Positions 963-39,029 of a stretch of DNA of 64,000 nucleotides are shown piece by piece. This DNA comes from Desulfobacterium sp. (GTDB lineage: Bacteria; Desulfobacterota; Desulfobacteria; Desulfobacterales; Desulfobacteraceae). Both the position numbers and the translations under genes were made by a program. Numbering within the stretch: the stretch's first letter is position 1; every line of letters starts with the position of its first letter. The stretch is from NCBI GenBank assembly GCA_016342325.1, contig JAEINR010000007.1:53017-117016 (forward strand). Reading direction: 5' to 3'. The notes under the pieces are model-generated. The model saw only the letters and a list, made by a program, of their open reading frames with translations, made no database searches and was not told the DNA's origin.

Positions 963-1403
963 CTAGGCAGCCAGTTTCCGTTTCCGTATGGCTTCCCTGA
1001 TGGGGGACGGCCCAAGCCCACGAATCCGCTGGTCCATCTCATTGGCGTACTTTGCAAACAGGGGCCCCTCGCCGGAGGACAGATTGTACATCTGAACCCG
1101 CTCGCCCCCCACGCCCACGGCATCCAGGAGGCGGGCGACCTGTTCAACCCGCTTTCTTGCCCTGAAATTGCCGGTACTGAAATGGCAGTCCCCCTCCATA
1201 CATCCCACCACATAAACGCCGTCCGCCCCCCGCTCAAAGGCCCTGAGCATGTGGATCAGATCAATTTTTCCGGTACAGGGAAGACGGATGATCCGAAAAT
1301 CCGCCGGGCACTTCAACCTCATGGAACCTGCCAGGTCCGCGGCTGAATACCCTCAATAGTTACAGCAGAACGCAAGAATCACAGGTGTAAAGTCCTTTGT
1401 CAT
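963..1403 (-). CDS. mvhD: MvhD-family hydrogenase iron-sulfur (delta) subunit, putative selenoprotein with in-frame UGA at 1353-1355
   Basis: Frame of ORF 963..1322 continues upstream: [16 protein letters not shown](UGA)GYSAADLAGSMRLKCPADFRIIRLPCTGKID; matches the MvhD CCNWCxYxxAD motif with UGA at the third Cys; ATGA overlap with hdrA. Confidence 0.88.
1323..1338 (-). promoter_or_regulatory. candidate bacterial SECIS hairpin for mvhD
   Basis: GGACCT-GGC-AGGTTCC (one bulged U), starting 14 nt after the UGA with a G-initiated apical loop. Confidence 0.65.
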
Positions 1404-4400
1404 ACGACCTCCTCCAGCAAGGCTTCCACCTTGCTGAGCAATTGGTTGTCCTCATACCAGTTCAGTTTGATGGTCTTGGCCGGGCATTCGGATGCACACA
1501 CGCCGCACCCGTGGCAGAGGGCAGCGTCTATGAAACTCACCCCCTCGTCATTGATTACCGGAACTTCATAGGGACAGGAGCGAACACAGATGAGACAGGA
1601 AGCGCAGTGTTCGGGATCCACCTCTGCCGTCACAGCGGAGAGGGTGAGATACTCCTGGGAAAGGAAGGTCGTGGCCCTTGAGGCGGCGGCCATGGCCTGG
1701 CTGATGGTCTCACTGATCAGCTTGGGACTGTGGGCCGTTCCGCAAATAAACACGCCTTCGGTTGCCGATTCCACGGGCCTGAGCTTCACATGGGCCTCCA
1801 TGAAAAACCCCTCCGGGTTCCGGCCGATCTTGAGAATGGAGGAGAGCTCTTCCGTGTCAGCGGCGGTCACGCCGGCGGAAAGCGCCAGAAGATCGGCATC
1901 CACCGCAAGCTTTCTGCCAAGGACATGGTCTGTGAAGGTCACCAGAAGTCCCGTGTCCGTCTCTTCCACCACCGGGGGATCCTCCCGGTCAAATCGGAAG
2001 AAGAGCACCCCGAGATTCCTTGCCTCGGTATAGTATTCTTCGAGCATGGCATACATCCGCATGTCCCTGTAGAGGATGAACACCTGGGCGTCGGGATTGC
2101 GTTTCTTGATGGTGAGGGCATTTTTCACTGCCGCCTGGCAGCATACCCTGGAGCAGTTGGGATTGTCCGCATTCCTGGACCCCACACACTGGATCATCAC
2201 CGCCTGGTCGACGTCACCTGCCCCCTCGTCTTCAAGCCGTTGGGAAAGTTCGGTCTGGGTGACCACCCGGTCGCTCTCAGGATAGAGGTACTCCACAGGG
2301 GTGTACTCGTCAGCTCCGGTGGCGATGATCATCACGCCGTGGTCGATCTTTCGTTCGTACATGCCCGGCCCCACCAGCACCTCGGTGGTAAAATTGCCCT
2401 TATACCCGGTGAACCCGACAATGAGGGATTCCTTGAGCACCTGGATCCGTTCATGGGCCTCGACCCGGGCCGCAAGTTTTGCCACATAATCCCGGATGTC
2501 CGCCCCCTCCACCGTGGTGATCAGGCGGTTTCCAAGGCCTCCGAGTTGATTTTCCTTTTCCACAAGCACCACGTCAAAGCCCTGGTCGCCAAGGCCCTTT
2601 GCTGCGGTCATGCCGGCAATACCGCCGCCGATCACGAGGGCCCTCTTTGTAACCGAGATCCTTTTTTCATGGAGGGGAGTAAGGGTTGCCACCCGTGCCA
2701 CGGCCATGCGAACCAGATCCTTTGCCTTGTTCGTGGCTTTTTCAGGAGTGTCATAGTGCATCCAGGAATCCTGGTTTCTGATGTTTGCCATCTCAAACAG
2801 GTACTTGTTGAGTCCGCTCTTCTCCAGGGTATCCATGAAGATGCTCTCATGGGTCTTTGGGGTGCAGGAAGCCACCACCACCCGGTTGAGCCCCTCCTCC
2901 TGGATCTTCTTTTTGATCCCGTCCTGGGCATCCTGGGAGCAGGTAAAAAGGTTCATTTCCGTATATACAACGTTGGGCAATGTTTTGGCATAATCGTTCA
3001 CCAGGTCAACATCCACGATGCCGGCGATGTTAATGCCGCATTTGCAGACAAAGACACCAATCCTGGGCGCTTCCTTGCGAACATCCCGCTCCTCAACCGG
3101 TTCCACCGACCGGGTGCGGGTATTTCTCGCCCGGACAAGCGCCTTGCCGGCGGCACAGGCGGCTCCGCTTGCTTCCGTGACCGAGGAGGGGATATCCTTG
3201 GGCCCCTGGAACACCCCTGCCACATAGACCCCGGGCCGTGAACTCTCCAGGGGATTGAAGGGAGAGGTCTTTGCAAACCCGTAGGTGTCAAGGTCCACCC
3301 CCATGCGCCGGGCAAGGGCCTGGTTTTCCGGGGGTATCTCAAGGCCCACGGACAGGATCACCATGTCAAATTCCTCGGTGACCATGGTTCCGGTTTCGTC
3401 CGCGTAATTCAGAATTAGATTCCCGGTTTCCCTGACCTCATCCACGCTGTGGATCCTTGATTTCACGAACCTCACATTGTCCTCGTCCCTGGCCCGGGCA
3501 TAATATTTCTCGTAATCCTTGCCAAAAGTGCGCATGTCCATGTTGAAAATGGCGCAGTCAAGCGCCTTTTTCGAATGCTCCTTGGCGATCATGGCGTCCT
3601 TGACCGCATACATGCAGCAGACAGAAGAGCAATAGCCGTTATTGCACCGGTTGGTGTCCCTGGAGCCGATGCACTGGAGCCAGGCGATCCTGTCTGGCTC
3701 TTTGTTGTCCGACGGCCGGGCAAGATGGCCCATGGTCGGACCGCCTGCACTCAGGATCCGCTCAAACTCAAGGCTTGTCATGACATTTGGGGACCGCTTG
3801 TACATGTATGTGTCGTCAAGGTTTGACGGATCAAAGGGCCGACTTCCCGAGGCCATGATCACCGAGCCCACGGAAAGATCCCGCTCCACCGGCAGTTGAA
3901 AATGATCGATGGCGCCGGCAAGGCAGGCGTCCACGCACTGGTAGCACTCGGAGCAGATGCCGCAGGAAAGACAGCGGGAGGCCTCCTCCATGACCTGGTC
4001 AAGGTTAAGTCCCAGGTTCACCTCGTTAAAATTTTCCGCCCTTTTTTCCCTGGCAAGCTTTTGGTGGGCAACCCTGGGCTTATGGGGTTCGCCCAACACC
4101 TCGGGCTTTTCAAACTCAAACTGACGCTCCCGGTCCAGGGAGAGGTCCTCGTTATTGAGGTAACGATGGATGCTGGTTGCCGCGGCCTTGCCCGAGGCCA
4201 CGGCATCCACCACGGATTTAGGGCCGTACACGGCATCTCCGCCTGCAAACACCCAAGGGATAGGGGTCTGGAGGGTGACGCCATCTGCCTTGAGTCCACC
4301 CTGGGGGGTAACTGAAATCCCCTGGGGGTCGGCAAACGAAAGTTCTCCGGTCTGGCCGATGGCAACGATCACATGGTCGCAGGCCAGGGTGGTGATATCG

Positions 4401-5842
4401 GTCTCATCATATTGGGGATTAAATCGGCCGTTCTTGTCAAACACGGACCTGCACCGCTTGAACTCCACGCCTGTGACAAACGCCTGTTTTCCAATGAACC
4501 GAACAGGCCCCAGGCTGTTTTCAATGGCCACCCCCTCCTCCAGGGCATCCTCGATCTCATAGTCCCAGGCGGGCATCTCCTCCCTTTTCTCCAGGCAGAC
4601 CATGATGACCTCTTCGGCCCCAAGACGCCGTGCGGTCAGGGCGACATCCACGGCCACATTGCCGCCGCCGATGACAACCACCCGTCCGTCAAGCCGTTCT
4701 GCGGTTTCCAGGGCCGCCGCCTTGAGAAAGGAGACCCCCTTGAGCACCCCGTTGAACCCTTCGCCGCTAATCCCAAGCCCCCGGCTTCCGTGGAGACCGA
4801 CGGCGATAAACACTGCGCCATACCCCTCTTTTTTAAGGCTGTCCAGGGTGATGTCGATGCCGAACTCCACATGGGTCTGGATATCGACCCCCAGGCCCTC
4901 GATGACGGCGATCTCCTTTTCAAGTTCTGTGTTGGGCAGGCGATACCCGGGAATTCCCACGGCCATCATGCCGCCCTTGACGGGCAGCTTTTCAAACACC
5001 GTGACCCCGTATCCCTGCTGGGCCAGGAAATAGGCCGCTGTAAGCCCGGCAGGACCCGCGCCCACGATGGCAACCCGCTCTTCCCTCTTTTCCGGAATTT
5101 CAGGCAGATAGGGTTCATCTCCTTCAAGATCGAGATCCCCGAGGAACCGATGGAGGTGCTGGATGGCCAGGGGACCCTCGAGGCCCCCCCGGGTACACTC
5201 GGCCTCACAGGGATGATGGCACACCCTGCCGCAGGATCCCGGAAACGGATGCTCCTGTTTGAACAACTTCAGGGCCTCTTGATGCTTGCCCTGGCCCATG
5301 AGCGCGATGAACCCCTGGATGCTCACATGGGCGGGACAGGTTGCCTTGCACGGCGCAGTGGAGCGCTTCGAAATGCCGAAAGCGCCGGGAATCGCCTGTT
5401 CATACTGCTTGAAGATCGCCTTTCTCGTGTTGAGTCCCTGGTTGTGCTCGCTTTGCACATCCACCGGACACACCTTGGCACACTCCCCGCAGCTGGTGCA
5501 TTTTGAAAGATCCACATACCTGGGCTTCTCTCGAATCCGGGCCGTGAAGTCACCCTTTTCCCCCTCAAGTGCCAAAAGCTCCGTATTGGTTAACAACTCA
5601 ATGTTCAGATGCCGGCCGACCTCGACCAGTTTCGGTGAGATGACTCACATGGTGCAGTCATTTGTGGGGAACGTCTTGTCGAGCTGGGCCATCATCCCCC
5701 CGATGGCATGGGAGCGCTCAACCAGGTAGACATAGTAGCCTGAGCTTGCAAGATCGATGGCAGACTGCATCCCTGCAATGCCGCCCCCCAGCACCATGAC
5801 CGCCCCGGCAATATTATTTGTGGACATCGATCTTTCCGTCAT
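1400..5842 (-). CDS. hdrA: Large HdrA-like protein (HdrA with inserted GltD-like NAD(P)H oxidoreductase module plus second HdrA module), putative selenoprotein with in-frame UGA at 5645-5647
   Basis: ORFs 5645..5842 and 1400..5596 lie in one frame: ...[46 protein letters not shown](UGA)[33 protein letters not shown]...; GltD-like [23 protein letters not shown] and [29 protein letters not shown]; second Rossmann motif [17 protein letters not shown]; ferredoxin motifs at C-terminus. Confidence 0.9.
5612..5629 (-). promoter_or_regulatory. candidate bacterial SECIS hairpin for hdrA
   Basis: CTGGTC-GAGGTC-GGCCGG (6 bp with G-U pairs), loop begins with G, starts 15 nt after the UGA. Confidence 0.6.
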
Positions 5843-38306: not shown

Positions 38307-39029
38307 TTAAGGAGCTGTGGAACTGAGCGTTCCCTTGACAGCTATGTTTCCGAACACCCGGATTTTCATTTCGGGTTGAAAGACACTGTCCGTCTTCAGG
38401 GTGATCACCTCATAATAACGGCCAACAACCTTTTTGGTGTTGGTCACCACAAGCTCCCAGGATTTTTTCTTATCTTTGGTCTGCTTCAACTCAATATCGA
38501 TATTTTTACCGGCGTCAAAGGATCCATCCTTGATTGAAAAATCGTATTTTTCAGCAGGGACAATGGTAACGATGCTCTGGATGATCTCCCCAGGCGTTCC
38601 CACGAGGTGGACCACCTTTGGCGTGACCGTGGCGATTTTCTCGACCTGGCCAGACATTTTTAACACCAGGGTTTCTGCGTTTTCAACACCTGTGAACACT
38701 TTTATCTTTTTAGACAGAGGTCTTCCACCATACCCGAGGGTGTTCAGCCTGATCTCTACGTTTCCTTCCCCACCTGGGGAAATCTCGCTGTCATGGGAGA
38801 CAGCGGTGCAGCCTCAGCCGGTTTCCACTTTCCGTATAAACAGTGTCTCACTGCCTTCATTTCGAATGACAAAGGTATGGCTAATCTTTGCGCCCTCGGC
38901 AACGGTACCAAAGCTGAAATCGGGTTCTGTCACAACGGCCTTGGCAGGGGAGGTGCCAGCCCACGCCCCGGGTATTCCAGTTATGCCTACAATAACGAGT
39001 GCCATAAGCACCACCAACATGTTTTTCAT
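38307..39029 (-). CDS. DUF1573-family exported protein, putative selenoprotein with in-frame UGA at 38814-38816
   Basis: ORFs 38814..39158 and 38307..38699 lie in one frame: MKNMLVVLMALVIVGITGIPGAWA...FSFGTVAEGAKISHTFVIRNEGSETLFIRKVETG(UGA)GCTAVSHDSEISPGGEGNVEIRLNTLGYGGRPLSKKIKVFTGVENAETLVLKMSGQ...; UGA at the first Cys of the family CGCT motif. Confidence 0.75.
38766..38805 (-). promoter_or_regulatory. two tandem hairpins after the DUF1573 UGA (SECIS candidates)
   Basis: CGCTGTC-TCCCAT-GACAGCG (starts 8 nt after UGA, loop lacks leading G) and TTCCCC-AGGT-GGGGAA (loop with G, starts 32 nt after UGA). Confidence 0.4.

Follow-up and report, generated by a model that had tools for sequence, protein, structure and literature searches.

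A selenoprotein described as a "DUF1573 domain-containing protein", with the motif UGC, is credited to Zhang and Gladyshev 2007 in the tables of two publications (PMC9312934, PMC13188914). Under the name OS_HP2 (pfam07610, motif UxC), it was counted in 2008 among the selenoproteins of ocean metagenomes (PMC2398784). The consensus of the bacterial SECIS element (bSECIS), as set out in PMC13188914, comprises an apical loop of 3-9 nt in which G occupies one or both of the first two positions and is followed by G or U, an upper stem of 4-16 bp, a spacing of 16-37 nt between the UGA and the apical loop, and an energy of at most -7.5 kcal/mol. A two-hairpin RNA element for OS_HP2 is not mentioned in the available portions of PMC9312934, PMC13188914 and PMC2398784, and a non-exhaustive literature search found no two-hairpin SECIS; the original 2007 description of the family may show one.

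The gene considered here lies in a stretch of 64,000 nucleotides of Desulfobacterium sp. DNA, referred to as the window. The initial annotation had presented its product as a new selenoprotein and knew of no established selenoprotein with a DUF1573 domain. The family is not new, however, because the protein matches the NCBIfam model NF041425, "OS_HP2 family (seleno)protein", with 115.4 bits (curated cut-off 100) and the published tables already list a DUF1573 selenoprotein with the motif UGC. The window protein is a member of this family, identical to the described proteins (NF041425; PMC9312934, PMC13188914, PMC2398784) in its domain, the position of Sec and the UGC motif, and nothing in the protein itself sets it apart from the OS_HP2 literature. 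For a selenoprotein family known since 2007, the analysis contributes one more well-supported member, together with a survey across the phylum. The signal of two hairpins that follows the UGA carries more weight than the protein, as it represents a testable variant of the way in which bacteria mark Sec codons and bears on the spacing that SelB measures. The explanation that very likely accounts best for the locus as a whole is an exported OS_HP2 selenoprotein whose mRNA would carry a displaced SECIS together with a spacer or stimulatory hairpin.

The gene and its product

The gene and the features of its product are the following.

38307..39029, minus strand: OS_HP2/DUF1573 selenoprotein gene, ATG start, 240 codons plus TAA
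38955..39029, minus strand: signal-peptide-like hydrophobic N-terminus, residues 1-25 (from the sequence; helix 3-17 in the model)
38643..38930, minus strand: DUF1573/HYDIN-type Ig-like domain 1, residues 34-129, carrying U72-G-C74 (Pfam, model and fold match)
38340..38633, minus strand: second beta-sandwich domain, residues 133-230 (model)
38814..38816, minus strand: UGA, almost certainly read as selenocysteine (U72); TGA in 79 and Cys in 16 homologs
38808..38810, minus strand: Cys74 of the U-G-C motif, nearly invariant (homolog comparison)

The coordinates 38307-39029 and the read-through peptide given by the initial annotation are correct, with a single in-frame TGA and then the TAA; the strand had been left unstated, and the gene runs on the minus strand from 39029 to 38307. 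Translation with the TGA as one residue yields 240 aa with a single U at residue 72, the surrounding peptide being ...LFIRKVETG-U-GCTAVSHDSEISPGGEGN..., with the motif U-G-C in the context ETG-U-GC-T. The Pfam DUF1573 profile (PF07610) matches residues 34-129 with 68.5 bits (cut-off 26.1) and runs across the UGA, in line with the earlier observation that the sequence is typical of the family on both sides of this codon.

The structure model consists of two beta-sandwich domains with a mean pLDDT of 91.6, and places U72-G-C74 in and beside the loop between strands 63-69 and 74-79. The fold matches are HYDIN-type Ig domains, as found in proteins of the ciliary central apparatus, and 2qsv, an uncharacterised protein of Porphyromonas; by sequence, the solved structures gave only chance-level matches apart from this same 2qsv. 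No enzymatic fold was recognised among the fold matches, and the fold does therefore not suggest an enzyme. From its sequence, the protein appears to be an exported, two-domain Ig-like protein (HYDIN/ASH-type) with a putative signal peptide. The UxC pair suggests chemistry of the selenenylsulfide or dithiol type outside the cytoplasm, in which U72 and C74 might act together in thiol-disulfide, related redox or metal reactions. A putative extracytoplasmic redox role is accordingly put forward tentatively, at slightly less than even probability.

The gene neighbours do not point to a redox partner. A pabB/pabC-type gene upstream and a HAD hydrolase gene downstream are shared by some relatives, while elsewhere the neighbours include RNase H, a glycosyltransferase, PfkB and others; the pabB/pabC and HAD hydrolase neighbours say nothing about a redox role. 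One subgroup of OS_HP2 proteins (L009, L010, L012, L038, L040, L041, L042) carries an extended C-terminal tail in which Gln, Asn and Lys abound. Two further DUF1573 proteins are encoded in the window genome (L043 and L077, on contigs C28 and C93), with Cys in place of Sec.

UGA as a selenocysteine codon

Homologs were searched for in 58 genomes, comprising the window's own and those of relatives up to the same order, of which 55 gave matches. In the 70 same-order homolog genes that were extracted, the codon aligned to U72 is TGA in 56, TGC in 8 and TGT in 6, and no other codon occurs. This pattern greatly exceeds what chance would produce, and Sec at the first Cys of the CGC motif is strongly supported. 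A family search extended to 297 genomes of the phylum yielded 30 loci; the 26 that were new contributed 23 TGA and 3 Cys codons at this position. The alternation of UGA and Cys that the initial annotation had suggested looking for is found across the phylum: the 95 homologs, which represent numerous genera and families, comprise 79 UGA and 16 Cys forms. The two following residues, G73 and C74, are nearly invariant. A short-peptide scan of the genome contigs returned only two distant matches, and a search of plasmids for homologs gave only distant DUF1573 proteins from Bacteroidota.

On a tree of the 95 sequences, the Sec/Cys label requires 7 changes, and several Cys groups are nested within Sec groups. 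This fits repeated replacement of Sec by Cys, a direction suggested by a tree with midpoint rooting only.

The machinery for decoding is present, as the window genome encodes selA, selB, tRNA-Sec (selC; anticodon UCA) and selD, all four of the genes whose presence had been proposed as a check. The selD gene (L036 and relatives) likewise encodes a selenoprotein, its reading frame containing a TGA with a canonical SECIS. From its gene content, the host appears to be a sulfate-reducing member of the Desulfobacterota. The window also contains, as noted earlier, two other Sec genes, both on the minus strand. One encodes an HdrA-like selenoprotein (DCTM-U; 1400-5842, TGA 5645-5647) with a canonical single SECIS, AGGU at +23, and the other an MvhD/FrhD-like selenoprotein (FCCNY-U-GY; 963-1403, TGA 1353-1355) with a SECIS loop GGC at +21.

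The UGA at 38816-38814 almost certainly directs Sec insertion, a conclusion drawn from the comparison of homologs. The initial annotation had considered a nonsense mutation to be the main alternative, and indeed the stop cuts the ORF and a single assembly of the strain was seen. A nonsense mutation, pseudogene or sequencing error can nevertheless be rejected, its probability being negligible, because 79 of the 95 homologs share this TGA and purifying selection persists beyond it. Relaxed selection beyond the UGA, named earlier as an observation that would speak against Sec, is not seen: when the window gene is compared with the relative closest to it (L001/L002, 75% identity), dN/dS is 0.31 before the UGA and 0.29 after it, and the remaining gene pairs examined likewise show constraint past this codon. 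Ordinary read-through, in which another residue is inserted, or a truncated regulatory product with termination as the dominant outcome, has in its favor that bacterial UGA codons can be leaky. However, the codon alternates with Cys only, and a SECIS-like structure is tied to the UGA forms, both of which fit selenocysteine specifically and make read-through of this kind highly improbable.

Two hairpins downstream of the UGA

The RNA following the UGA is predicted to fold into two hairpins.

38786..38805, minus strand: hairpin 1, 7 bp, loop UCCCAU without G, 9-28 nt past the UGA; conserved stem
38765..38782, minus strand: hairpin 2, 7 bp, loop AGGU, loop start 39 nt past the UGA; putative SECIS

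Both hairpins had been pointed out in the initial annotation, and both proved to be real and conserved across the UGA members of the family. The folding energies, which refer to isolated RNA windows and not to ribosome-bound mRNA, were compared with two null models, one with codons shuffled within amino acid and column, and the other with codons drawn from the gene itself. Over 55 UGA genes, the mean energy of the hairpin 1 window is -5.8 kcal/mol, compared to -3.6 (column shuffle) and -2.1 (own-gene codons), and that of the hairpin 2 window is -8.9 kcal/mol, compared to -7.0 and -5.1, respectively. The corresponding z-scores range from -9.8 to -15.3, values that come from related genes and hence overstate the number of independent events. 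No clear excess stability is seen at either window in 13 Cys genes. As the windows had been picked after the folds were seen, the energy test was rerun on 23 fresh UGA genes, giving -7.7 vs -2.8 for hairpin 1 and -10.7 vs -6.1 for hairpin 2. A sliding window with no preset positions likewise gave a double peak across 78 UGA genes, while 16 Cys genes lacked any peak of note.

Covariation was assessed on 28 sequences from outside the window gene's own clade, with 500 shuffles. Hairpin 1 displays double-sided changes in 7 of 7 pairs, while the covariation of hairpin 2 is weaker, with 12 double-change cells; in each case the score was reached by 0 of 500 shuffles, a count that the relatedness of the genes again makes look more independent than it is. 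Both hairpins are present with at least 4 bp in 51 of the 55 UGA genes of the order, hairpin 1 being predicted as weak or absent in a few UGA members (L068, L066, L069), and both are missing from nearly all Cys members. One Cys gene (TGC; L063) that sits within a Sec group keeps both hairpins, and is likely to have exchanged Sec for Cys recently, with the SECIS left as a remnant. An Rfam scan of the region gave no relevant match, and kissing between the two loops, inspected by eye, is not conserved.

The earlier description of hairpin 1 as having the right distance and the wrong loop, and of hairpin 2 as having a G-containing loop too far away, is accurate and turns out to be a conserved property of the family. 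A G within the first two loop bases is found in 50 of 55 UGA members for hairpin 2 and in only 2 of 55 for hairpin 1, where it should be kept in mind that the loop Gs of hairpin 2 are also dictated by Pro-Gly-Gly codons. Like the bSECIS consensus, hairpin 2 is a stem-loop past the UGA with a G early in the loop, then G or U, and it satisfies the limits on stem, loop and energy (4-nt loop and -9.8 kcal/mol in the window gene). It departs from the consensus in its spacing, which is 38 nt in the window gene and mostly 37-39 nt in OS_HP2 instead of 16-37 nt, and in the extra conserved hairpin that lies between. Of the 70 UGA genes having both hairpins, 68 have the start of the hairpin-2 loop at +38 to +40, and when the length of hairpin 1 is subtracted the position becomes mostly +18 to +25 in these 70 genes. 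The hairpin-1 loop starts at +14 to +21.

As controls, the selenoprotein genes for HdrA, MvhD and SelD were taken from the same genomes. The loop is AGGU at +23 in 30/30 HdrA genes, GGC at +21 in 19/19 MvhD genes, and mostly GGU or GGC at +21 for SelD (14 rows, 2 apparently spurious), and each of the three shows one peak of excess structure, that is, one hairpin. The AGGU loop of hairpin 2 in the window gene is the same as that of HdrA, but is located at +39, some 18 nt too far downstream.

Proposed decoding mechanism and its alternatives

In the proposed mechanism, the UGA would be decoded as selenocysteine via SelB and tRNA-Sec, with SelB binding hairpin 2 through the AGGU loop. Hairpin 1 would fold the intervening RNA such that the hairpin-2 loop is brought to the usual effective distance, or could instead exert a stimulatory or termination-blocking effect. 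Hairpin 2 is probably the SelB site, while a role as spacer or stimulatory element is assigned to hairpin 1 with somewhat less assurance. In the simplest model, SelB would bind hairpin 2 and hairpin 1 would absorb the extra RNA.

Eukaryotes possess a selenocysteine redefinition element (SRE), for example in SEPN1, which is a stem-loop near the UGA that boosts recoding besides a separate SECIS. Hairpin 1 shares with it the position near the UGA and the existence of a separate, putative SECIS. It differs in being bacterial, lying within the coding region and directly preceding the putative SelB site, and any functional likeness is only by analogy. An SRE-like stimulatory role for hairpin 1 fits about as well as that of a spacer.

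Two other assignments of the hairpins have to be weighed. Hairpin 1 could itself be the SECIS, recognized by SelB without a loop G, with hairpin 2 being secondary. Its loop start is near or within the classical range of distances, and it covaries more strongly than hairpin 2; however, the loop lacks a conserved G, is variable in both sequence and register, and is unlike the HdrA, MvhD and SelD loops read by the same SelB, whereas the loop of hairpin 2 matches them. This assignment is thus unlikely. It is more doubtful still that hairpin 2 results simply from the conserved IPPGGEGK peptide and that only hairpin 1 is selected as RNA. The codons of this peptide are GC-rich and pair to some extent in the nulls as well, at -5 to -7 kcal/mol, but hairpin 2 is about 2 to 4 kcal/mol beyond the synonymous nulls in the UGA genes and not in the Cys genes.

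Returning to hairpin 2 as the putative SelB site, the arrangement could be regarded as a bipartite SECIS, in which a hairpin 1 of variable sequence keeps the more distant hairpin, with its GG(U/C) loop, at the effective SelB distance and is needed for efficient Sec insertion; we give this generalization an even chance. If it is true, the spacing rule is set by the three-dimensional distance and not by the nucleotide count. Search programs that demand a spacing of 16-37 nt may overlook or mis-score genes with a two-hairpin signal of this kind.

Finally, a second selB adjoining a second, divergent tRNA-Sec gene (anticodon UCA) was observed in six relatives (L198-L203; genomes G030, G050, G047, G051, G057 and G044, the selB match in G044 being partial), which possibly constitutes a second, putative Sec-decoding pair.
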